This document shows, in pieces, positions 5,920-64,000 of a DNA stretch of 64,000 bases (position 1 is the first letter of the stretch; the number at the start of each line of letters is the position of its first letter). The stretch is taken from contig JAIWZP010000039.1 in NCBI GenBank assembly GCA_025201375.1, positions 62,001-126,000 of the forward strand, read 5' to 3'. Made by a program: the position numbers and the translations under genes. The notes below the pieces were generated by a model. That model had not been told where the DNA came from, did not search any database, and saw only the letters and a program-made list of their open reading frames with translations. Source of the stretch: Gongronella butleri. Lineage: Eukaryota; Mucoromycota; Mucoromycetes; Mucorales; Cunninghamellaceae.

Positions 5920-6850
5920 CCTCTATTTCAAATTTGGGTCGATTGGGGTAAATTCATTCGGAAGTGCTATTAGGATGTTTCTTTTTTAACGACACTTCTA
6001 TTTTAGTTTCGTCAACAAGGCACTTTCCAGCCCCGACACGCGTCTCGACGTGAAGTGGCGAGCTCGAAACACCATAGAGAGCCCAACTCGTGGCTGCCAC
6101 CAAGGATCGGGGGCACGCTACACGCAAATAAAAAAACGAGCCTTGCCGAGCTCCAAAACCAAAATCGAAAAATCAGGTTCCCAGAATCACGTCAAACACA
6201 CACATAAGAATGGCCACCTGGGAAACCACGAACAAGACCAAAAATAAGAGCGATCCAATTGCTCGTAGTCGAGCAATCTGTAATTTAAGATTTAATTTCA
6301 AATGCGAATTGCATAGAAAGAGCGCGTCCATAGCGCCGCGCCGAAGCGTCCACTAGCAAGAGAGACGCCAGGTGCATGCGTGTGTAACTCGACGACTGAC
6401 GCCGTTTATTACGCGTCAATATTTGCCCCCAAACAGGCTGGTAGCATTAAATCTGCTAGGAACTCGATTTTTGTAGTGATCGCTGATAAATACGTATGCG
6501 GCAGGCTTTGCTCGTTCTAGTGATCTTTGTTTTGCGGCTCTGTGACCAATTTTCGTCGACTTTTCCTTGAGGCGAAAAAAAGAAGCAAATTACATTTTAC
6601 GCGTGAACCAGTCGATGTACCCCAGGGTTTTCTCGCATTTCCATAGGCTAAACAGGAGCGTTTGCCATGTGTGTGAATGGCGCGTTGACCTGAGGACTTT
6701 AATTTTGCTGTTTTCAAATCGTCGACTGTACCCCCCAGGCAAATCCATCATTTTCGAAGATCGTCGTCGTGCGCCATCTAGTGGTCACAGAGCCGCAAGT
6801 GCGCACTCATTCGAACGGCAAGGCGTGGAATGACAGGTTTAAACAGGAAA
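5920..6850 (+). repeat. Dispersed repeat R1, copy 2
   Basis: Aligns with 1490-2470 along most of its length. Examples are GCGCGTCCATAGCGCCGCGC near 6320 and TGCGCCATCTAGTGGTCACA near 6770, each close to the matching blocks of copy 1. No protein-coding frame survives comparison. The copy is flanked by the two R3 copies, as if two composite units lay head to tail. Boundaries are approximate. Confidence 0.65.
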
Positions 6851-12669: not shown

Positions 12670-14400
12670 TAACAAATTGCACTTGTCATTTGAAAACGAA
12701 CGAGAGCGTGTTTTCAGACTGTTGTGCCTCCAGAATTTTTTTTTACAACCTGCGTGCCCGCCAATGAAAATTGCATCACGGGATGAATTACCGTATTGCC
12801 CAGTATGATACAGTATGCGGGATGCGTCCGCCCGATTTTTTTTGAACTCGAAAATGCTAAATCCCTCAGATTTGCACTTTTTTGCATTCATCTCATCATC
12901 TACATGATCGAGCCCGCTCAAAAATAGCTGCATCGCATTCAGTGCAAAATCTGCTATAAAAAAGCTTAAACTCCCAAAGCGCTACGATCACTTTTGAAAA
13001 ATTCAGGGGTCACTCAGGGGTCACACATTTCAATCCCAGAAAATGCCAAATTTGGGAAAGTTCGAACTCCGAGTGATCAATGCATCCCAAACGGGTAACC
13101 CCGACAATTTGCTATTGGCACACAAAATGCCAGGTTGCCTCAACAACTTAGGAAAAATGTCCAAAGAATGACGCATGAACGGCGATCGACTGAGAAAAGT
13201 GCCTACTTTGGCCAAGATTTTTTTTACAAAAATTTAAGGTTTGACGCTTCCAAATTTAGGTGCGTAAATTGCATGGAATTTTTTTTACTGTATTTTTTTT
13301 GCGGGTTTTTGTGCGTTGTAGTAGAAATATGGGCTGCAAGCTGGTGAAATGACCGATGCAAAAAGTTAAAACCCAAGCTAGCGCCCTGCAAGTCATCCCA
13401 TTAGATGCTTTGATTCCCTGTTCTTTATTAAATATGAACTAAAAATCGGGAATTGACTAGACAGTTGTTGAGCAAATCGCCATTGAATTTTTTGTTGAAA
13501 AAGTGTATTTCCTCGACCAGTTTTGATCAGATCGCCGTGAAACTTGTTCCATTCGGTGGAGATTCAGCAGCGGCATTTGACACGTTAAAAGCATTGTTGG
13601 TTATTTTTCCAGTTGTCGAGAAAAGCAAGTTTGAAAATTGATCCAACGTTTGATCGACTTTTGCAAGCGGGCAAAGTTCATCCATCGGGCAAGTAAACAA
13701 TCAGGAAATGACATCCGAGTGTGTCTCTTTCGATCGGTGCCATTTCACCGCGATCCACAAAATATTTTGAGAGACTCGTGCCAGATTTGTGGAAATGTCA
13801 GAATTTGGATTCATCTGCACAATGACTCGGTCGATTCCAGGTTTGAGCGGTTTTTCAAAAGGAGTCGCGTCGGTAAAACAGTAAATGTGTAGATTTTGAG
13901 CCACCCAAGCTTGATGATTTGTGGCATTTAATTCTGCATTTGTATCATAAAAATGTCGAGATTTCGAATTCATCTGCAAAACGATCCAGTCAATCTTGGG
14001 GTTTCATGTTGTGTTGTTGAATAAGGCGCGGCGAAATAGTCAAAGGGCAAAGGTTGGGAGGCAATCGATTCATGATTTGTGTTGGTCATCCATGGATTTG
14101 TGTCAATTCTTGAAAACGGCGCATGCCACGAAAGCGGCCCGATCAACATCTGGTTTTTTTAATTTTTTTCAAAGAGAGACGCTGAAAAAGCCAAATGGCA
14201 AAGTTTGGCGATGATCGAATCATGATTTTACCGCGAAATGAATTTTACAAAAACGCGCTACAGCCAAACTTTCAGCAATGCCGTGCTTCCCGACAAACCA
14301 CATGATTGACCTTTGGATTTTTATTTTTTTCTGAGAAGAGAGGAGCAACATCCACTACATGTAAAAGTTTCGTGGAGCTGCGATGAGTCCTTGGTGACGA
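12670..14400 (+). repeat. Dispersed repeat R2, copy A (longest uninterrupted)
   Basis: Aligns with 42655-42975 and, with one large interruption, with 57070-59260. Strong blocks are the CCGCCCGATTTTTTTTGAA region (~12830), AAAAAGCTTAAACTCCCAAA followed by GCGCTACGA (~12960), the region of TTCGAACTCCGAGTGATCAA (~13060), AACCCAAGCTAGCGC (~13370), TTTTGATCAGATCG (~13520) and TTTTTCTGAGAAGAGAGGAGC (~14325). Short open frames are not conserved between copies. It carries no recognisable transposase or reverse transcriptase. Confidence 0.65.
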
Positions 14401-39166: not shown

Positions 39167-39689
39167 TGTCACTATATGAAAATCGAGCAAATAGTAAAAC
39201 AAATCATTACCAAACCATTTCTTTGTAATAAAAGAAATGATGTTCGAATCCCTTTTGTTGCGCGGCAGAGAAGGACGCCAAGTGACGGTTACTTTGGTCG
39301 ATTTTTTATGCTGTTTTCTTTTCAAAATTCGATCTTTTTTTATTCAGTGTGGCGACTTGCGGTGCCTGGCAGGGTTTAAATGTGGTTGGATCAAAAGCTC
39401 ATCACATGTGCGTCGATCTCATATCTAATTTGCGTAAAGTCAATGTGATCAAAGACGACCTCTTTAAAAAAAAGGAGCAAAAATTGTTTTTTGCCCTATG
39501 CAGTCGCCATGCCGTTGATACACGGGTCTTTGAGACATTCAAAACAAGGAATCAACACTTTTCATTGTTTTATTCATTGGAGCAAAGCTCTATGCTTCCT
39601 ACAAAACCCGCTCGTGATGAAAAAGTGAAAAAATTGCATTTTTCAAAGGATCTTGCCAACGGCTAGTTGTGCCTCATGATTTTTATCGT

Positions 39690-40580
39690 TTTTCCCGAAA
39701 AAACAGCTTCCAAATGGTATATAAGCAGCAGAAGGCCGACACAGCATAAGCTTGATCGCGCGCAATGACCATTTTCAAAAACCTCCAATTTTCCAAGGTG
39801 TGCAGTCGAGGAATGGAAAATGGTAAAATTTCGGTCCCCTGATCGTCATGCCATTCACGCCGTACGTGAACACACTTCATTCATCGGCAAAAACGCAATA
39901 AAAAAAGGTAGTCCATCAAGCGGTTTTGGCGCAAAACACGCTTAAGGCTTTATTTTTGACTCTAGTGCAACTCAACGAAAACTGCCTGTATCTCAATGAA
40001 ACGCACACCATTAGAAAGAGTCTGCTTTCTGCATACGTGGACATTGATGATCAATGTAAAAAATGATTTTTTGGCAAAACTAACGCGGGTCAAAAGTTAT
40101 TATGAATTTTGACGCGTCATGAAAGCGCGTCAGCTTGGTTACTCCTGCTTTGTTTTTTGCATCAGCATCTTGCACCCGAGGGGTCTCTTGCTAATAGACG
40201 CGTCGACGCGGCTCCAACGTAATTTTTAGACGAGAAACTCGCAGGCAAAGTTTAATCTAAAATCGCACATTGCTCGCCACCGGGATGATGGATTGTTTCC
40301 TTTTTTTGTCGTTTTATTGTTTTGGCAATGCGACCATGCCTGTGTTCAAGTTTGATGCAATTCTGGGAACCTGATTTTTGGATTTTGGTTTTGGGGCCTT
40401 GCCATGGCAAGTTTCTGATTTGTGCATAGTGCGTCTACAAACATCTCTGATCGCTCCCCGTTGAGTCTCACCCGGGTTTCCAGCTTGCCAATTCACACGA
40501 AGATGAATTTTGGCAGTTAATAATGCTTTGCTGTCCTCGATCATTAATTAATTCAGCCATTTTCCTAAAATGAGCGATTA
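39690..40580 (-). repeat. Dispersed repeat R1, copy 3 (unit 1 of array)
   Basis: Aligns collinearly with 45235-46080 and, inverted, with 1490-2470 and 5920-6850. Landmarks: GCGCAATGACCATTTTCAAA (~39760), ATCTCAATGAAACGCACACC (~39991), ATAGACGCGTCGACGCGGCT (~40194) and ACCTGATTTTTGG (~40370). It lies downstream, in transcript sense, of the first helix-turn-helix array gene. Confidence 0.65.
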
Positions 40581-40883
40581 AACCTCAATTCACGTCGGAC
40601 CGCGAGCACTCAAAACACAAAAAAATAAATGAATAACGATGCCCGAGAACGTTTCTTTAGGATGGAAATTGCTTTTGCATGTCCTGCATTCGTCCATTTG
40701 CCGAGGTACGACCAAACGAGCAAAACAGGCGCATTTTCGCAATTGACGATAATCATACTGTAATATCGTGCTTGCTTGCAAAGTTAAAAAGAGGGAGACA
40801 ATGCGACGTACAACATTCATACTACATATTTTATGAATAGAAACGAATAAAAAATAAAAATAAAAAAAAAAGACGACAGCTGA

Positions 40884-41948
40884 TCAAATAAGAATGGAAA
40901 AGGGGATTTCGTTTACAAACTTGATGCGCTTGGAAGATACACGGGCAGATGTGCTGCGATGCTCGTTCACTGACATTCCACTGCGTAGGAGACGCTTGTT
41001 CATTTGTCCTTCACGGTGTGTCTCGTGGGAATCAGGCTTGCAATTGACATTTTTTGAACGCGATTTGCCGATGTTGAGCATTCTTTCGAGGCGGACTTTC
41101 GTGATGCCGAATGTTCTTGCCACAGCAGACGCGGAGTGGCCTTGCTCAAGGCGTTTTTTCATTGTTTCCTTTGCGGCCGGCGAGATGTACTTGAACCGTG
41201 GGTTGGGGATCTCGATGTTTCGTTCCTTGCATATATTTCGTACGGATTGAACGCTGACGCCACACTCTTTGGCTGCTGCGTCTGCCGACATCCTCTTGGT
41301 CATGCACTGCACAACCTTTTCTACCTTGTCTTTTCTGATTTTATGATCACAAATGCCCATCTTTTTTTTCACCAGTTTGACGAACGTGACCGTGGTGTCG
41401 CAATCCACAGCAATCTTCTTGTCTGATGCATCGCCAGGAGGGAGCGCTAGGATCTGCTCTTGGATCATTTTGACCGTGTTTGGGTCGTACATCCTTTCCT
41501 CGCCAGGGAGCGAGACGTCATTTAGAAATTTCAATCTTTGAACGGTGCCAAATGAAATGCCGTTCATGCTTGCTGTTTCCGCCACGGAGACGCCGTCCAA
41601 AAGAAGCTGTATGATTCGTTTCTTTTTTTCCTCGCTGATTGGTGTATTGGTTGGCTTGGGGACATCGCATTTTAATCGGTATCTTGCGACAGTGCTCGTG
41701 CTCACATTGCATGCCGCGGCTATCTGGACAATCGTTTTTCCCTGGGCAACAAGTGCGTTGATTTCTTCAATCTTTGATTCGCTTATTTTCTTGTTGGGAC
41801 CCCCAATTATCAGTGGAAGGTTGTGGATGCGTCGCTCTCTGGACACCACGGGGTAATTCACACCACATTGGCGCGCCGTTTGCTTCATTGGCATGCCACT
41901 CAACAAACATGCCCTTATCTCGTCACGTTTAGCTTGGTCAAGTTTCAT
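40884..41948 (-). CDS. Helix-turn-helix array protein A (six HTH units)
   Basis: An intronless frame of 354 residues from ATG 41948, the position matching the start of its paralogue. It is built of serial ~38-residue HTH units at about 6-43, 57-95, 104-143, 157-197, 205-244 and 256-293, each shaped like 'LLxxGxSxxxxAxxCGVSxxTVxxxR', as in resolvase or homeodomain-like HTH domains. A seventh unit is cut short (312-326). The last residues, RIKFVNEIPFSILI, recur in the paralogues. No nuclease, transposase, recombinase or ATPase motif is seen. Thus it looks like a modular DNA-binding protein. The flanks are shared with the next two copies. Function unknown. Confidence 0.8.
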   Translation of the reverse strand: MKLDQAKRDEIRACLLSGMPMKQTARQCGVNYPVVSRERRIHNLPLIIGGPNKKISESKIEEINALVAQGKTIVQIAAACNVSTSTVARYRLKCDVPKPTNTPISEEKKKRIIQLLLDGVSVAETASMNGISFGTVQRLKFLNDVSLPGEERMYDPNTVKMIQEQILALPPGDASDKKIAVDCDTTVTFVKLVKKKMGICDHKIRKDKVEKVVQCMTKRMSADAAAKECGVSVQSVRNICKERNIEIPNPRFKYISPAAKETMKKRLEQGHSASAVARTFGITKVRLERMLNIGKSRSKNVNCKPDSHETHREGQMNKRLLRSGMSVNEHRSTSARVSSKRIKFVNEIPFSILI

Positions 41949-42654
41949 AGATGCGACAAAAAAAGTGGCTGGGAAAAAAAAAGAAAGTGGGCAAGAAGAA
42001 AAGAAAAACAAAAAAAGGGGGAGGGTCGGGGGACGAAATAATGGCGTTTTGTTTCAAAGAGCGCCGTCAGCACGCGTTTTTGCCCACCCGCTGGTCTTCA
42101 CTTTTATGCAAGGTGCATCATGGGGCGGATTTACACTAACCATTTTGTCGTTTGCATCCACGTATTGTGTAATTTCAAGAAGAATGTATGTAATGGTTAT
42201 TGAGGGTCCGATTTTAAGTGCTTTTTTTTTTTTTGTATTTCATGATGTAGGATGCACACATCTCCAGTCAGCGAGACAACTCTCCCGCTTTGCACACGGC
42301 AAATCACAATATGAAATGCATCATCAGATATAATTTTGTTGCATGCATGCCATCTGATGCCTTAAACAATGGCCATTTTGAGCTTTTTAGAGTATTTTCG
42401 ATTTTCCCCAGCTGCGCACAGGGGCACAGCACACCTTGTTGGCATCAATACGTCGGTACCGCACACAAAAAGATACGTGATGCTGTATGGAGAAACGGAT
42501 TTTTGCATTTTTACGTTCATTTTGCATTCCTTTTTAACTAGGCCAGTGCCACTGCTGCGCACCGCATTCCAAGGTGCTATCATAGGTGCACTTCTTGACA
42601 CGCGCCTTCGCTACGATTCCTGCAACGTCGCTCTATGATATACTGCACAAAAAT

Positions 42655-42975
42655 TACACACGTTTGCCTTTGGAAAACAAAAAAAGTCAGTTTTCCGGAC
42701 TTTGAGAGCCTGCTGTGCCTCCAGAGAAAAATTTACAGCCTTACTTCCCGCCAACGACAGACGCGTCCTGGCATGAACTAAAGCCTATGTGCTGGATGGA
42801 TGCGCCCGATTTTTTTTGAACCTGCAAATTCCAAAAACGCAAAATTCGTCCTATTTTGCATTACTGTAATCTCACCATCCTCTTGGTTAATCTCACTCAA
42901 AAGCAGCTGCATCGGGTTCAGTGCAAAATTTGCAACAAAAAATCTTAAAACGCCAAAGCGCTATGACCACTATTC
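42655..42975 (+). repeat. Dispersed repeat R2, copy B (truncated)
   Basis: Matches the first ~300 bases of R2 copy A (12670-12985) and the split copy C. Blocks include GCCTGCTGTGCCTCCAGA, GCGCCCGATTTTTTTTGAAC, AAAAGCAGCTGCATCGGGTT and CCAAAGCGCTATGACCAC. It stops abruptly at ~42975, exactly where sequence of array unit 2 begins mid-R1, so R2 sits at the junction between units 1 and 2. Confidence 0.65.
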
Positions 42976-43479
42976 ATTCTTTGTGTTTAAAATTTGATGC
43001 AGCTCTGAAGACTTGATTTTTATTTTTGATTTAGGAGCTTACTTGGTTGTTAATAAATTTTCTTTTGTGCACGACGCGTCCGTAAACTTGAGCAGCTTTG
43101 AATCGAATCTAGCCCAGTGTCCCGGATGTCTCAAATGTATAAAAATGGGTTTTAGCGACCGTTTAGTGCTTTGTTTTCCTCGAGCAATATCAAATTTAGC
43201 CATTTTTTCAAATAATCGTTTTGACGTCATTTTTACGTCAGGTCACAAGCACGCTAGCATAGGCCAAATGTTACGCGAAAACGTCTCCCTGGAATGGTGT
43301 ATTTGCTTGGTCTAAACACAGCAAGTTGATGAGGAGGATTGAACAAAATAGCAAAACGCTGCATTTTCGCGCCTGACGTCTAGTCACGTGCTTCCTTTTT
43401 AAAAGTAAAAAGAGGGACAGGATGCAAAGTGCAATATTTATGGATAGAAACAAAAGGAAAAAAAAAAAAGGACAACGCG

Positions 43480-44805
43480 TCAAATAAGAATGCAAAAAGG
43501 GATTTCGTCTAAAAACTCGATATGCTTGAACGACGAACTGGCAGATGAGCTCCCAGATGCATTTTCTGCGAATAGAGCCAGAGATTCGAGTTGTTCCTCC
43601 TTGATCACGGGTTGTCCATGGATGTTGAGCCATTTTATTACGCGATTGATCGTCATAATGGTCAGGCCGCATTGGTCGGCTATGCTTGACGGGCTCTCAC
43701 CCTCGGCAAGGAACCTTTTGATCTTGTCCAGCTTGGGCTCGCATACACCTGGTGGTCTGGGCAGTTGCAATTCATGTCGTAAATTGCCCACGGTTGAAAT
43801 AGAGCGGCCACAGGCGGCTGCCACTTGGCTATTTGTCTTCCCACTGAGCAGAAGGCGCGTCATCTTTTGTTTTTCGAGCTCTGTCATTTTTGAAAATCTG
43901 GCTTTGGCTGAGCAAGACGGATCGAGATTTTTAGACGGTGGTTGTCGCTTTTTCGGAAGGACGACCTGGGCTGTTTTTTGGAAGCGCCTCACGCTGGTCA
44001 AAGAGACATTACATGCTGCAGCCACATCCAACGGATGCTCGCCGTGCTCCAGGCGTCTTTTCATTTCTTGCTTTGTGCTTGACGGGATGGTACTTGGGTC
44101 GGAGATCGGAATCTTGCGTTTTTCGCATATTTTTCGAGCGGTAAACACGCTCATGCCAGACGCTTTGGCCGCCATTCTTACCGACATCCCACTGGCCAGG
44201 CACTCCATAACCTTGGCAATTTTGTTGTCGCTGATTGAACGATGATCGTCGATGCCAAACTTTTTTTTCGCCATTTTGAGCATGTAGACCGGGATGTTGC
44301 AGTCCGTCGATATCTTTTTGAACGACTCGCCAGCAAGGAGCTTGCTTTTGATCTTGTCAAGGGAATCGATGCTGTTGGCGATTTTAATGTTTTTGACCGT
44401 TTCCACTTTTGTCTTGCAGATGCGAGATATTTCAGTCTCGGAGACGCCGTCCAAAAGGAGCTGTGAAATACGCTGCTTTTGGGTGTTGCTGAGTCTCCCC
44501 CTGTATGACCTTGGCATGGCCGATTGAAATCGATAATTTGCCGCTGTAAAAGGGCTGACACGGCATGTTTTTGCGATATATGCAAGCGTCTTTCCCTCGG
44601 CAAGAAGCTTTTTGATTTTTTTGATCGTCGATGGGGCGCACTTTTTGAAGGTTTCGTGCGTCTTGGGAATATTGTGCTTGCGTTGCTCGTGGGCCACAAA
44701 ATAATAGCCCACATTACAGTATTTCGCCGTTTTCTTCATAGACATGCCACTCAGCAAGCACGCCTTCACCTTGTCACGTTTTTCTTGGCTAGGGGCAGAA
44801 TACAT
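43480..44805 (-). CDS. Helix-turn-helix array protein B (eight HTH units)
   Basis: An intronless frame of 441 residues from ATG 44805, paralogous to 40884-41948. HTH units lie at about 9-46, 58-95, 107-144, 150-186, 194-231, 244-280, 309-346 and 357-394; typical text is CLLSGMSMKKTAKYCNVGYY and LLLSGKTNSQVAAACGRSIS. The order of units matches protein A for the first six, and A retains a remnant of unit 7, so A appears to have lost the stretch corresponding to units 7-8. The shared tail is HIEFLDEIPFCILI. The frame is open over its full length while the third copy is broken, which suggests recent or selected function. No catalytic domain is visible. Confidence 0.82.
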   Translation of the reverse strand: MYSAPSQEKRDKVKACLLSGMSMKKTAKYCNVGYYFVAHEQRKHNIPKTHETFKKCAPSTIKKIKKLLAEGKTLAYIAKTCRVSPFTAANYRFQSAMPRSYRGRLSNTQKQRISQLLLDGVSETEISRICKTKVETVKNIKIANSIDSLDKIKSKLLAGESFKKISTDCNIPVYMLKMAKKKFGIDDHRSISDNKIAKVMECLASGMSVRMAAKASGMSVFTARKICEKRKIPISDPSTIPSSTKQEMKRRLEHGEHPLDVAAACNVSLTSVRRFQKTAQVVLPKKRQPPSKNLDPSCSAKARFSKMTELEKQKMTRLLLSGKTNSQVAAACGRSISTVGNLRHELQLPRPPGVCEPKLDKIKRFLAEGESPSSIADQCGLTIMTINRVIKWLNIHGQPVIKEEQLESLALFAENASGSSSASSSFKHIEFLDEIPFCILI

Positions 44806-45234: not shown

Positions 45235-46080
45235 TTGTTTTCTGAAAAGTGAGCAGCCAAATTGTGCACAGGCATCAATAGGAGGGTGCCGCAGATGCTC
45301 GATCGCCCGCAAATGACCATTTTCAAAACTGCGAAACTTCTAAGGGGCACAGTCGTTGATTTGAAATCAATGAAAATTGAGTCCTCAGATCACCACGCTA
45401 TTTAACTACAAGATAAATGCACAGCATTCACCGACGAAAATCAAATAAAAAGCAGGCCGTCCATTGACTCGTTTCCGCGTAGTATCCTATTTGCCTCTTT
45501 TTTTCGCCTCAAGGTCATCTCAACGAAAAATGACTGTATCTCCGAGAAACGCGCACCATCAGAAAGACTGTGGCTTGCTATATAGCGGATATTGGTGATC
45601 TACGAAAAAAGCGGCTTTGTGGCATTTTTGACGCGGTTTTAGAACCATATGCAATTTTCGGCGCGTCATAAAGTGCGTCAAACTTCGGATTATAACATGC
45701 CTGACCCTCGTGAAACATGCACATGAACTGTCTCTTTCTGATGGACGAGTCGGCGCGGCTCTATGAGCGCGTTTTCCCCGTGAAATTCGCTGTTGAAATT
45801 TTAACAAAAATTGCTCATTGCTCGCGAACGAACAGATAGATCTCGCTCGCTCTTTGCATTTTCCGTGGTTACAATACACATTCTTTCTTATGTGTAAGTT
45901 TGGCGCAATTCTGGAGACCTGATTTTTAATTTTTGGTTTTGGGGGCTCGCCATGGCAAATCTTTGATTTGCAAATAGTGTATCCGCAAGGATATCTAATC
46001 ACTCCTCATTGAGTCTCACTCGGTTTTCTAGCTTTCCAATTCGTATGAAACCAGAATTTTAAGATTTTTTGTACTTTATT
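45235..46080 (-). repeat. Dispersed repeat R1, copy 4 (unit 3 of array)
   Basis: Collinear with 39690-40580: GCCCGCAAATGACCATTTTC (~45308), ATCTCCGAGAAACGCGCACC (~45538), GACGAGTCGGCGCGGCTC (~45744) and GGCGCAATTCTGGAGACCTG (~45902). It lies downstream, in transcript sense, of the third, broken helix-turn-helix array copy. Confidence 0.65.
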
Positions 46081-46384: not shown

Positions 46385-47423
46385 TCAAATAGTAATGCAA
46401 AAAGTGATTGCGTCTAACAACTCAATGTGCGTCCACGTTGCATTGGTAGTCTCGCTGAACCCTGGGTGGGTGACCTGTTCCTTTTTGCACGCTGTCACGG
46501 GCGCTTAAGCACGGGTGAACGAACCGAATTGAGACTTTTTTGCAGGCGATCTGGCGATGTTGGCCCTTCTTTTAAATTCGCGCACACTGGATTCGAAGAC
46601 GCCGCATGCTCTAGCCACAGCAATACAGATCTCGCCTTGCTCAAGGTGCTTTTTCATTTTTTCCCTTTACGGCTGGGGTGATGCGCAATGGGTTACAGAG
46701 CGGGATGTTGCGTGTTTTGCATAATTTTCGTATTGCCGGGGCTTTTGTGCCAAACGCTTCGGCTGCTATGGCTGACGACATGTCCGCGGCAATGCACCGT
46801 GTGATCTTGTCAATTGTGCGGTTGCTCATTGAACGATTGTCAATGCCCAGTTTTCTTTTCACCGTTTTGACCAAACAAAACGCAACTTTGCAATCTTCAC
46901 AATCTTTGTGGGCGGATCGCCTGCCAAGAGCTGCCTTTGGATCTGTTGAATTTTGTCTGGGTCGTACTGCTTTTTCTCACCAGGGGAATGGATATAATTG
47001 AGGAATTTCATGACTTTGACGATCGTTGCTGTCAGATTTGAGCTGTTTTTGCCAGAGAGTTGCCGTGCAAAAGGAGCTTTATGGCCTGTTGCATTTTGAC
47101 GTCGCTGAAGTATGCGAGTGTGCTACCACGGTGCACTCGATAATTCGAGACTGTACATACAGTACATCGACTGACATTGCATTCCGCAGCCACTTAAGCT
47201 ATCTTCATGCCTTGGCCAAGAAGATTGTTGATTTTTTCTATTGTTGCTGCGCTGATTTTTTTTTTGGATCGCTCGTGTGTCTTTGGATGGCCATGTTTGC
47301 GTCGTACGTTGGCAACCATGCCGATGCTCACACCACATTGGCGTCCCGTTTGAACCATTGACGTGCCCTCAATAAGCACGCCTTGACCTCGTCATGTTTG
47401 GCCTGGCCAATAATAATGGGCAT
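46385..47423 (-). pseudogene. Helix-turn-helix array copy C, frameshifted
   Basis: The third paralogue. An ATG at 47423 opens GQAKHDEVKACLL, like the starts of A and B, but the frame shifts within the first HTH unit; the continuation (LIEGTSMVQTGRQCGVSIGM) lies in another frame. Further recognisable pieces are KISAATIEKINNLLGQGMKI (unit 2) and, near 46641-46874, a fragment matching units 4-5 (KRKLGIDNRSMSNRTIDKIT, then KLCKTRNIP). The C-terminal tail survives as HIELLDAITFCITI before TGA at 46385-46387. Multiple shifts make a functional product unlikely. The 3' flank and the start region still align with those of genes A and B. Confidence 0.75.
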
Positions 47424-47811
47424 CGTTATGGCAGCAATGTGGCTAGAAACAACCAAGTGAAAAAAAAAGGGGGGAACGACGGATCGGGGGCGAAAGGATG
47501 GCCTTTTTCATTCAAAGTGAATTCGTGTGCAACTTGATGTTTTGACAAGGAAAACACATGACAACAACAACAACAAAAAAAAAAAAAAAAAAAAAAAAAC
47601 CTGCCAGTGGGAAAAAAAATTGGTGCCCGCTCAAAATTGCATTGTGTGATGATGGCTGGCAAAGACTTTTTATTTCGCACGGGAATAAAGCATTATTAGC
47701 TTTTTTTGTGTGTGTGTGTGTACTTCAGTGATGAGAAGAAAGGGGGTGGCGGCAAGATGGCAAGGGCACTCTAAAAGTAACAAAAAAAAGTGACAAACAG
47801 GACGAATTGCT

Positions 47812-57069: not shown

Positions 57070-59260
57070 GAAAGTGACACATTTGCTTTTGGAAAACGAA
57101 AAATGCTGTTTTTATGATTTTGGCAGCCTGCTGTTCCTCCAGAAATTTTTTTACAGTACATCCTGCTCGCCCGCCAATGAAACTTGCATCATGGCGTAAA
57201 CTACAGTATTATGACCCACTGCTCAAGACGGACCCGCTGTAGTGGGGGGTCTCCGTCAAAGAAAAATAAAAATAAAATAAAAAACAAAATGAAGACTACG
57301 AATCACGATTAAAAGACGGTCTGGACCTTTATTTCAGCTACGAGGATGAAAGGGCTATTTATACAGATTGCTAGAAAACGAGGCGCGGCTATGGTTTATG
57401 ACGATCGCGCTCTTTTCTCGCGCCCTTGTCATCTTTAATGTCCATTTTTCATTTCGGCCTTACTCTGAACGGCCAAGTGTCCTGTCGTGACACGCTTAAG
57501 CTTTGAGAGGGCCAACGTGTCACAGAAAGACAGAATTCAATTGTGCCACGGCATTGAGCTAGACAGCCCGTGACGCATTTCATTCAAAAAAAATTTTTTT
57601 TGCTTTGCTTGGCCTATCACTAAAAAGGCCAAGCACTCTTTCGAATTGTCATTTAGGATTTGTCATTCTTTCATTTTTGAATCTAAAGATATTTCTCGGC
57701 GAACATGTCCGCGCACACAAAGGCACTGCGCGGTCATTCGTTTCTTGTGATTTATATTCAGGGCTGCACGACACAGCGATGGTGCTGTCGCATTGAGCGG
57801 GATTGTCGGTGATCCGAAATGACGCCATGACATCATTTCCATATCGGACCTTTGGTGTCCGACCACAATCCTATTTTTTTTATTTTTATTTTGCTGCCAT
57901 CCGCTTGCGTCCCTGCCTAAGCCGGATCTGTGATGCATTGGCACTTGCAGCTGGCTGTGCTGCCAAGTCCATTTGACCAAGCAATGGCTGTGTGCTTGGG
58001 AGCCTGCCTCGAATTGCCGAAACTCGCATTGAGTGCTTTTATGCATTTGTTCACTCTTGCACCAATTGGTCCATTTCAGTGCTTGCGCCGCAGCTGGCGC
58101 GACCAATGCGTGTCAATCTGGCGCTTGACACCACACCCGCCCGATTTTTTTGGACTTGTAAATGCAAAAAACCTCATGTTTGTACTAATTTGCATTCATC
58201 TGGCCATCTGCATTGCCGACCCCACTCAAAAATACCTGCATCGCGTTCAATGCAAAATTTGCAACAAAAAAGCTTAAACTCCCAAAGCGCTACGACCACT
58301 TTTAAAAATTCAGGGGTCACACATTTCAATCTCAGAAAGTGCCAAATTTGGGAAATTTCGAACTCCGAGTGATCAATGCATCCCAAACAGGGAGCTTTGA
58401 CAATTTGCTATTGGCAGACAAAATGGCAGGTTGCCCCAACTTAAGAAAAAGCCCAAAGAGTGACGCATGAACGACGATCGACTGAGAAAAGTGCCTACTT
58501 CGGTCAAGATTTACTTTTCGCCAATTCATGTTTGACTCCTTCCCAAAATAGCAACTTATTTTTTTGAACTGGTGGGCTGCTGCAGCCTGCAAAATGATGA
58601 CCGATGCAAAATTTTCAAACCCAAGCTAGCGCGCCGCAAGTCATCATCCCATTACTGTGCAATATCATAGATGCTTTGCCCCCCTCCTCTTTGTTGGTAC
58701 TGTAAATCTGCAGGAATATCATACAGTAAAATCACAGGTCGTCTGGGCCGTTGCCGAGCAAATCGTCATTCCAGAAATTGTCGCAAAAAGAAGAAGCTGT
58801 TTTCTCGCCGTCAGTTTTGATCAGAACGTGGTGCACGAAACCTGCTTCATTCGAGAGAGATTCAGCAACTCTGCAACCGCATTTGACACGCACGTTGAAA
58901 GCGCACTGGGTTGTTTTCCCAGTTGTTGAGAAAAAAATTGAGTCTGAAAATTAATTCAATACCGTAATAATGATTGATTGATTTTTGCAAGCGAGCAAAA
59001 TTATTACGTACGTATGATAAAATGTACAGTATTTGTACATCGCTCGGGCCTTCTTCGGGCGAGCAAACAATCCCAAAATGACACCCACCAAGTGTGTTTT
59101 AATTTGTTTCTGAAAAGAGGAGCCAAAATTTCATCAGCAATGTCAAGTCTCGTCGCGTCCCTCGCGGAACCAGCCGAATGACCTCGAATTTTATTTTTTC
59201 TGAGAAGAGAGGAGCCAAAAGAACTTAAATACTGTATGATATCATACAGTATCATCAGAC
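57070..59260 (+). repeat. Dispersed repeat R2, copy C (split by an insertion)
   Basis: Matches R2 copy A on both sides of 57238-58135. Left part: TTTTTATGATTTTGGCAGCCTG and CGCCCGCCAATGAAACTTGC. Right part from CCCGATTTTTTTGGACTTG through AAAAAGCTTAAACTCCCAAA, TTTCGAACTCCGAGTGATCA, ACCCAAGCTAGCGC, TTTTGATCAGAACG and TTTTTTCTGAGAAGAGAGGA. The match is tight for ~270 bases around 58250-58510. Confidence 0.7.
57238..58135. mobile_element. Probable solo LTR inserted in repeat R2
   Basis: About 898 bases interrupt R2 at a point where copies A and B are continuous (CCGCCCGATTTTT and GCGCCCGATTTTT). The insert begins TGTAGTGG and ends CACCACA, i.e. TG...CA ends with short imperfect inversion, and is flanked by CCCGC on both sides (57233-57237 and 58136-58140), a 5-base target duplication. 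These are LTR-retrotransposon integration marks. It contains several AATAAAA-type words near 57265-57290 and a TATTTATAC stretch near 57355. There is no gag or pol, so it is either a solo LTR or a non-autonomous element. Confidence 0.6.
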
Positions 59261-59281
59261 TGTAGTTGTTCTACTACTGTA

Positions 59282-60286
59282 CAGTGCCCTACCAAAAAAA
59301 ACTTCCGCCCTGAATATTGATCTGCATTGCGCGTGTCAAATTAATCACGTTAATCTGCTCTGTATTGATCAGCAATGGCTTTAATGATGTGAAATTTCGT
59401 ATGAACAATGATATAAAAGTATAAAAACGATTCTAAAATTATGAAATAACTACAGCAAGCGGATTTTGAAACAGACTAAAAAAGGGGTACCTGACGCGTC
59501 ACGCGACGCGACGCGTACCCACGCGTATACAATGGCCAGTGGAGATGAATCGACATTATGAAGCAGCATCTCCAAATTTTTCTGAGACAAGTTTGACGGT
59601 GCCTGATTGTATTCAGTTAATAAATTTCATGGTACATGCGTCATGTCAAAGCTGAGCTCGACAAATATAAAATGACCACCGTGACGCGTCAGACACGTCA
59701 TACCCGCAATTTCCTTAAAATGATCGTTGTGCTCTAATTTCGTGATATAATCACAACCAATTGATAGCATCCTATTCTAATCCTTCAAATTAAATAATCA
59801 CAATGGTTTCAAGCCAAAAAAATATTAAAACTAGTTGCTGGAGGCGAAAATCGCCATTCCAGACGCGTCTGGCACGTGACGCGTCCCAGCGGTCATTTTA
59901 TATTTGTCGAGCTCAGCTTTGACATGACGCATGTACCATGAAATTTATTAACTGAATACAATCAGGCACCGTCAAACTTGTCTCAGAAAAATTTGGAGAT
60001 GCTGCTTCATAATGTCAATTCATCTCCACTGGCCATTGTATACGCGTGGGTACGCGTCGCGTCGCGTGACGCGTCAGGTACCCCTTTTTTAGTCTGTTTC
60101 AAAATCCGCTTGCTGTAGTTATTTCATAATTTTAGAATCGTTTTTATACTTTTATATCATTGTTCATACGAAATTTCACATCATTAAAGCCATTGCTGAT
60201 CAATACAGAGCAGATTAACGTGATTAATTTGACACGCGCAATGCAGATCAATATTCAGGGCGGAAGTTTTTTTTGGTAGGGCACTG
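59282..60286. mobile_element. Foldback element with ~410-bp inverted arms, TA-flanked (Tc1/mariner-like MITE)
   Basis: The left end, after TA at 59280-59281, reads CAGTGCCCTACCAAAAAAAA; the right end is its reverse complement, ending before TA at 60287-60288. Arms run about 59282-59695 and 59873-60286 and are nearly identical (one visible change, ATCGACATTATG versus its counterpart TGTCAATTCATC region). The ~175-base centre has no gene. TA duplication and CAGTG...CACTG ends are typical of Tc1/mariner non-autonomous elements. The near identity of the arms suggests recent origin or repair by gene conversion. Confidence 0.85.
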
Positions 60287-60532
60287 TACAGTACAGTACT
60301 GTACTGTAGTTGGGAAAGGTTCGTGGCGTTGCGACAAGAAGTCTATCTTTATTATTTGGTGGTGGTGATTATTCTGGTGATTGAAATGATTTTTTTTCGA
60401 ATTCTGGAAAAAAAGTGTTGGCCAGCAGGTCAAAAAAATGCATCTGGTGGAGGATGGTCCCGCCCCCCGTCCGCTTGAGAGGCTGCTCCGCCAGCCCAGA
60501 CAGAAAAGTCCAATCCGTTTGGCAACCTATTA

Positions 60533-63390: not shown

Positions 63391-64000
63391 ATGTTTGCGT
63401 TCTTTGAGCCTATGGAGATTGACTCACATCTGTGCAATGGGCACCATGAGTCCATACCGATGCAGACTTTTTCTTCGAATACAGAAGAATTGCCGTTATA
63501 CACCACGGGTATGACCCGTTTCACGGATACGCCGGCCCTTTCCCCGAACCTGACGCTATACACAGAGAGACTGACCACCTCCAAGGATATGACGGTCTCT
63601 TCTACGGATACGCCGGCCCTTTCCCCGAGCCTGGCGCTATCCACAGAGAGACTGACCACCTCCAAGGATATGACGGTCTCTTCTACGGATACGCCGGCCC
63701 TTTCCCCGAGCCTGGCGCTATCCACAGAGAGACTGACCACCTCCAAGGATATGACGGTCTCTTCTGCGGATATGGTGTCCCCTCCTTTGGACACGTTGGC
63801 CACTACCACGAAAATGGGCACTTTTACGGCTCTTGTGGCTACTTCTAGTCCGACTCTTAACAGACGACTGGGGCCACTTCCGACACGTGGCCGGAAACCG
63901 TTGAGTTCGGATGCCAAGCTTCAAATTTTTAAGAAGTACGTAATGGCGCCCAAAGAAAAGCGACCATCCGCGCGTGCATTGGCCGTCCAGCTTGGAATAA
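63391..64000 (+). CDS. Repeat-bearing protein with HTH-like segment, 3' end outside window
   Basis: An open frame from ATG 63391 to the window end (203 codons, no stop), divergent from the transposase with 197 bases between starts. After an N-terminal segment (MFAFFEPMEIDSHLC) come three 27-residue repeats (TPALSPSLALSTERLTTSKD and MTVSSTD), Ser/Thr-rich, then TRGRKPLSSDAKLQIFKKYV and RPSARALAVQLGI, which looks like the first helices of an HTH as in transposase or Psq/CENP-B N-termini. Placement suggests a second gene of the transposon or a neighbouring element's transposase. A long opposite-strand frame across the repeats is a mirror effect. Confidence 0.6.
   Translation, partial: MFAFFEPMEIDSHLCNGHHESIPMQTFSSNTEELPLYTTGMTRFTDTPALSPNLTLYTERLTTSKDMTVSSTDTPALSPSLALSTERLTTSKDMTVSSTDTPALSPSLALSTERLTTSKDMTVSSADMVSPPLDTLATTTKMGTFTALVATSSPTLNRRLGPLPTRGRKPLSSDAKLQIFKKYVMAPKEKRPSARALAVQLGI
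63525..63769 (+). repeat. Coding tandem repeat, 81-base unit
   Basis: Three head-to-tail units starting near GATACGCCGGCCCTTTCC; units 2 and 3 are identical by eye and unit 1 differs at a few sites (CCGAACCTGACGCTATAC versus CCGAGCCTGGCGCTATCC). The length is 27 codons, so frame is kept on both strands. Confidence 0.85.

Follow-up and report, generated by a model that had tools for sequence, protein, structure and literature searches.

Arrays of serial helix-turn-helix units encoded by a multigene family in Gongronella butleri

Introduction

Among described proteins, those most like the ones considered here are Cbp1 and Cbp2, the archaeal proteins that bind clustered regularly interspaced short palindromic repeats (CRISPR) and are built of serial homeodomain-like helix-turn-helix (HTH) units with basic linkers. 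Cbp1 has three repeats and Cbp2 two, and no catalytic domain is mentioned for them (PMC4390879). In this paper we describe genes A and B, which encode longer arrays of HTH units, a degenerate paralogue (copy C) and the family to which they belong; the three lie within a stretch of 64,000 nucleotides, referred to as the window, from the genome of the soil fungus Gongronella butleri (Mucorales). The units of this family number 4–11, as opposed to the three and two repeats of the archaeal proteins, for which we know of no equivalent tail or length-varying multigene family.

Other known systems share parts of this architecture. Serine invertases such as Hin and Tn552 Bin3 resemble the family in the HTH unit itself, and have one such HTH joined to a recombinase domain. 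Tc1/mariner transposases and paired-type domains have homeodomain-like units of the HTH_23 type, two of them in a row, but they stop at two and the transposases add a DDE catalytic domain. The TnsD target selectors of Tn7-like transposons differ in being bacterial, with a TniQ-type core and diverse C-terminal regions. Krüppel-associated box (KRAB) zinc-finger proteins and transcription activator-like effectors (TALEs) combine serial DNA-reading modules with changing module number, a shared effector part and gene clusters, although their folds are unrelated to HTH and no code is known for the G. butleri arrays. The named serial HTH proteins that we met have two or three units, against 4–11 in G. 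butleri.

Genes A and B encode arrays of HTH units

A preliminary description of this DNA gave A six HTH units with the stump of a seventh, and B eight. Coordinates, Pfam, a unit profile and AlphaFold2 models agree on this arrangement, which is as follows.

40884..41948, minus strand: gene A; ATG at 41948, stop at 40884; 354 residues; six HTH units, stump of unit 7 and tail
41817..41930, minus strand: A unit 1, from the unit profile
41664..41774, minus strand: A unit 2, from the unit profile
41517..41627, minus strand: A unit 3, from the unit profile
41352..41483, minus strand: A unit 4, with a short insert inside; limits from model helices
41214..41327, minus strand: A unit 5, from the unit profile
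41073..41180, minus strand: A unit 6; limits from model helices
40962..40997, minus strand: stump of A unit 7, at a looser profile cut; low confidence in the AlphaFold2 model
40887..40919, minus strand: A C-terminal tail, with Ser at position -4
43480..44805, minus strand: gene B; ATG at 44805, stop at 43480; 441 residues; eight HTH units and tail; the same as database protein P0001
44668..44781, minus strand: B unit 1 (this and the next seven from the unit profile and AlphaFold2)
44524..44628, minus strand: B unit 2
44368..44478, minus strand: B unit 3
44251..44361, minus strand: B unit 4
44110..44223, minus strand: B unit 5
43966..44076, minus strand: B unit 6
43762..43872, minus strand: B unit 7
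43621..43734, minus strand: B unit 8
43594..43605, minus strand: B psi-K-x-E (IKEE), 41 residues from the C-terminus; possible acceptor of small ubiquitin-like modifier (SUMO)
43483..43515, minus strand: B C-terminal tail, from tail comparison across the family
46388..47424, minus strand: copy C, a degenerate paralogue with in-frame stops; upper limit approximate

HTH_23 is the best Pfam model on both proteins (4.8e-22 with four stretches in A, 1.1e-20 with three in B). The unit profile, seeded with the eight B units and iterated over the frames of fetched family loci, finds six units in A and eight in B, and the stump of A unit 7 when the cut is loosened; at the stricter cut a single unit is found in one of 2000 shuffles of A and B. 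Because this profile is derived from the family itself, it is Pfam that provides the independent evidence. Each unit has about 38 residues and the repeat spacing is about 47 residues. Linkers do separate the units, but the range of 10–28 residues given previously is too narrow, as by profile limits those of B run from 2 to 31 residues.

AlphaFold2 models of A and B, built from six family sequences, give three helices per unit (24 in B, or 8 x 3, and 18 in A, or 6 x 3), in keeping with the proposal that the units fold as HTH. The predicted local distance difference test score (pLDDT) is 70–90 for most unit residues of both proteins, while the stump and tail of A are unstructured and of low confidence. 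As modelled, the proteins are beads on a string, composed of HTH units of predicted fold. They are also basic, with isoelectric points (pI) of 9.7–10.7 in all 25 family frames.

That these proteins lack a catalytic domain had been suggested before, and none is found in Pfam scans of five uninterrupted members (B, A, P0006, P0007 and C1). There is no DDE match for B (24 of 24 families shown), A (25 of 35 shown), P0006, P0007 or C1, and the same scan recovers DDE_3 in a transposase of this genome. Nor is there a resolvase catalytic domain in the five proteins, the HTH_7 part alone being matched. The Myb domain is not among the 24 Pfam families for B at expectation values (E) up to 1, its likeness being structural only, and neither is the TAL repeat among those 24.

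A and B belong to a larger family

The family extends well beyond the two intact paralogues described previously: in a search of the genome we find approximately 35 related loci on 16 contigs. These comprise 24 uninterrupted frames with 4–11 units and 11 broken or fragmentary loci; the count was made by hand and is a lower bound, since scoring covered the best candidates only. Searches with five members, with the tail as a DNA pattern and with Pfam HTH_23 converge. The uninterrupted frames are C1, C22, C31, two on C34, A, B, C44d, three on C45, C46, three on C52, C54, six on C67, C94 and C99. The broken or fragmentary loci are copy C, one each on C34, C45, C46, C52 and C99, and further C78, C85, two on C93 and C100. 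The copies are scattered over many contigs, some as tandem clusters. The HTH_23 search of the genome gives 20 matches, several of them outside the family; the five of these that were fetched resemble transposases, and DDE_3 confirms one.

In a FastTree phylogeny of 25 proteins with midpoint rooting, in which C78 and C93 are not intact and from which the third C45 gene is left out, the Cys-type members form a clade with support of 0.98, and C67a–e, C45y and C34a form a group with support of 0.94. C67z adjoins the latter group (support below 0.9), and C34b and C45x fall outside under this rooting. We found no relatives outside G. butleri in searches whose limits are weak and which are no proof of absence, and no account of such a fungal family in a literature search that most subscription journals fell outside. 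It is rather probable that A and B are members of a lineage-specific multigene family of modular DNA binders.

Unit number changes by whole modules

It had been suggested that units are grown or lost by recombination, and several members document such changes. C1, with 11 units, contains a 141 bp tandem repeat of 6.6 copies with 87% matches, of which modules 6 and 7 are identical across 141 of 141 bases, an exact and recent module duplication. C67c, with seven units, has one unit more, near its end, than its four neighbours in a five-gene tandem cluster, and C46 lacks the part of the array where its relatives have units 5 and 6. Unit number thus changes by whole modules, and recombination is the obvious route for their gain and loss. 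Such variation is shared with TALE and zinc-finger proteins, to which the arrays were likened previously; the likeness to TALEs is an analogy only, with no TAL-effector repeat among the Pfam families for B and no implication of a code of one unit to one base.

In the B group, by comparison, the units keep their places. With units 5 and 6 of C46 relabelled 7 and 8 beforehand, the best cross-protein match lies at the same position for 73 of the 76 units, and identity between units at the same position is 0.49 versus 0.27 for other pairs. On these sequence comparisons the arrays of the B group are old.

Variation is concentrated at the predicted DNA-reading face

The ratio of nonsynonymous to synonymous substitution rates (dN/dS) is 0.36–0.54 in all 10 pairs of the C67 cluster, indicating purifying selection and that the proteins are kept. 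Within the units, however, conservation is uneven. At four columns of the recognition helix (25, 26, 29 and 30) mean same-position identity in the B group is 0.16 versus 0.49 at other exposed columns, and in the C67 cluster it is 0.55 versus 0.75 elsewhere among exposed columns (permutation p 0.018). The seven least conserved columns of the B group (26, 25, 15, 29, 14, 30 and 16) are those of the recognition helix and the start of helix 2. The ratio of the proportions of nonsynonymous and synonymous differences (pN/pS) in the C67 cluster is 0.83 at the four recognition columns, 0.60 at two other helix-2 positions, 0.49 at the helix 2 start, 0.44 at exposed helix-1 positions, 0.38 at other exposed helix-3 positions and 0.36 in the core. 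Among units 5–10 of C1 there are 0 nonsynonymous versus 22 synonymous differences at exposed helix-1 columns over 15 pairs, 24 and 0 respectively at the helix 2 start, and 35 and 10 at the four recognition columns, with the proviso that these unit pairs are not independent.

Variation is therefore concentrated, as a pattern, at the predicted DNA-reading face; as to its cause, it fits either diversification of specificity or relaxed constraint. The variable recognition positions together with the pI of about 10 fit DNA binding, and sequence-specific binding at multiple sites is plausible for these proteins.

The C-terminal tail

The tail F-[LV]-[DN]-E-I-P-F-[CS]-I-L-I is present in A and B just as first described, but its reach is far wider than these two copies: of the 24 uninterrupted frames 23 end in it, and it occurs in two clades. 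Position -4 is Cys (Ser in A) or Val (Ile in C45y), and C34b has the last eight tail residues only. As a DNA pattern the tail gives 19 matches at up to 2 mismatches, all at family loci, and the reversed control gives 0. Several synonymous sites vary among the tail codons and some codons are nearly fixed. As pN/pS of the tail is 0.30 in the C67 cluster, constraint at the protein level is likely, and there may be constraint at the DNA level too.

A survey of 24 tail-bearing frames, broken ones included, places a psi-K-x-E motif 41 residues from the end in 9 of 16 Cys-clade tails and at 42–45 residues in 3 more, with none in the 8 Val-type or outlying tails of the listed set; the pattern missed C67b, the broken C52 copy and the third C45 gene. 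Such sites could serve as SUMO acceptors. We considered CaaX prenylation as a common role of the tail and rejected it because position -4, Cys in some members, is Val, Ser or Ile in others that carry this tail, although individual Cys-type members may be prenylated. In C45x (L038:1301-2755) four or five HTH units precede a long proline-rich region.

A segment beyond the stop of B also recurs with the family:

43160..43480, strand not assigned: 3' segment of B, from genome matches
40519-40608: weaker relative of the B 3' segment
46067-46380: 3' segment of copy C

Elsewhere in the genome the B segment is matched five times at E up to 1e-5, in each case at a family locus, so that the 3' segment accompanies family genes. 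Between B and copy C this segment is 79% alike, as against 66% for the aligned coding stretch. Within it is a 23-bp motif with 5 genomic occurrences when up to 3 mismatches are allowed, the reversed control giving 0. Of these occurrences 4 lie downstream of family genes or remnants and the fifth, next to a fragment, is upstream of the C99 gene; we take the motif to reflect shared ancestry of the 3' segment.

Comparison with known HTH proteins

Against solved sequences the top match of the unit profile is 8vd6, a designed repeat protein (1.9e-16), with Tn552 invertase Bin3 (2r0q; 9.8e-07), the CRISPR repeat-binding protein 2lvs (1.1e-05) and Hin (1hcr; 3.1e-04) also found. Single units also resemble the HTHs of Tc3 and GcrA, and a GRP stretch before one C67-cluster unit resembles the Hin arm. 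The first-listed NCBIfam match is NF040595 (Cbp1) for B (2.2e-12), A (1.5e-13), C67z (1.6e-15) and C1 (3.6e-17), although all four proteins miss its cut-off, with 47–62.6 bits summed over repeated units versus the 140 bits of NF040595.

With E up to 0.001, a Foldseek search of the model against BFVD finds 22 matches. The best, Q2XUW5 (462 residues) and A0A141HSI3 (447 residues), align over 433 and 414 columns at about 1e-11, and the top three have 14–17% identity with TM-scores of about 0.2, as flexible arrays would give. As these proteins align over nearly the whole model, the array format may not be unique, and judging from such models long HTH arrays probably exist among viral proteins too. 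Multi-HTH proteins of viruses and phages (unnamed BFVD entries, D5-like and HNH-linked proteins) include some with nucleases, and there are PHROG matches to the family; tblastn of B versus 50,697 phage records gives nothing at E up to 0.01. No named relative that we met combines a length of 4–11 units, this tail and this family behaviour.

The frames L042, L044, L045 and L046, of 333–343 residues, resemble Tc1/mariner transposases, with DDE_3 in L042. In all five Tc1/mariner proteins of this genome that were examined the HTHs score 6.9–23.9 bits against the unit profile, where the best of 1000 shuffles reaches 6.6. As these HTHs are weaker relatives of the unit, the units may derive from the DNA-binding domains of transposases.

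Discussion

On the reading that we favour and find rather probable, several recognition helices of an array would dock along a single long stretch of DNA or at clustered sites. Arrays would lengthen or shorten by whole modules through recombination, and the predicted DNA-reading positions diverge between paralogues more than the remainder of the fold does. The conserved tail, which follows a psi-K-x-E motif in most Cys-type members, would then recruit a common partner, through which the family would bring a single output, most likely repression or silencing, to its many sites. The members would probably be regulators or silencers. More tentatively, we propose that the family constitutes a further natural modular DNA-reading system, in which eukaryotic HTH modules, in place of zinc fingers or TALE repeats, have been duplicated, lost and re-specified at the recognition helix, each gene would have its own long target, and the tail would recruit a silencing or regulatory partner.

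Some observations weigh against the favoured reading. The four recognition columns were narrowed down after the B-group table was seen, and the B-group p of 0.00015 is thus partly post hoc; the C67 test applies the same columns to other genes, and a wider column set that was fixed first gave a weaker contrast (0.59 vs 0.50 overall). With pS at 0.51, synonymous sites of the B group are close to saturated. In C1 units 5–10 column 29 is invariant, and helix 2 and the end of helix 3 show changes as well; the least conserved columns of the C67 cluster (25, 26, 10, 3, 24, 12, 15 and 33) do not include 29 and 30, and two of them are on helix 1. With pN/pS below 1 at the C67 recognition columns, positive selection is not established. 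The predicted template modelling score (pTM) is 0.25 and 0.35 in the models of B and A, the mutual placement of the units being without confident prediction, and C45x is an uninterrupted member that lacks the tail.

The same genes might instead be cargo or accessory genes of mobile elements, or domesticated DNA-binding parts of transposases, with arrays that bind element ends and have no part in host regulation. The dispersal of copies over contigs and their tandem clustering are what such an origin would give, a dispersed repeat is part of the flanks that several copies have in common, and Tc1/mariner transposases of this genome have HTH_23 as their first HTH, above shuffles with the unit profile. 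However, those HTHs score under most true units and the five members scanned have no DDE, resolvase-catalytic or nuclease domain in Pfam. The repeat in question, which is degenerate and about 700 bp long, lies at 1693-2344, 6123-6829, 39618-40450 and 45298-45971 of the window with copies about 65–70% identical; it has 607 first-look candidates genome-wide, of which 40 were scored, it occurs beside other reading frames in the window as well, and an alignment of six copies shows no sharp edges. We therefore rejected it both as the long terminal repeat of a mobile unit and as a binding target, as it is generic and without clear ends. With the repeat generic and the 3' segment accompanying the genes, the earlier suggestion that the arrays target their own repeats is unsupported. 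We regard a mobile-element role for the family as unlikely.

The constancy of unit positions in the B group (73 of 76), and one unit of the C67 cluster that is almost invariant, would also suit ordinary transcription factors with fixed targets, in which most units are structural and one or two give specificity. Such factors are a decidedly unlikely explanation, as the recognition columns differ at the same position between paralogues and the number of units itself varies. HTH folds are used elsewhere for protein or RNA binding or as scaffolds, and spliceosomal chains are among the structural matches, but the high pI and the centring of variation on the recognition helix make it very improbable that the units bind protein or RNA as a scaffold rather than DNA.

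If the proteins bind DNA as predicted, the proposed modular system would be an HTH counterpart of zinc-finger or TALE arrays, and if target sites follow unit order the arrays would form a scaffold that can be programmed, and the fungal equivalent of KRAB zinc-finger proteins. The family allows a direct test of HTH domains as stackable DNA-reading modules and of what their expansion controls, and in the C67 cluster natural variants in unit number lie next to one another.

Other repeats in the window

An inverted repeat at 59275-59691 and 59877-60293, with 417-bp arms that are 99% identical and relatives near C100, C22 and C1, looks like a recent foldback or an element resembling miniature inverted-repeat transposable elements. 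A second dispersed repeat, at 12828-13678, 42790-42974 and 58137-59002, has copies about 70–76% identical and is found also near C44d, C52z and C1. A tandem repeat at 63523-63772 has a period of 81 bp, with copies 95–98% identical.

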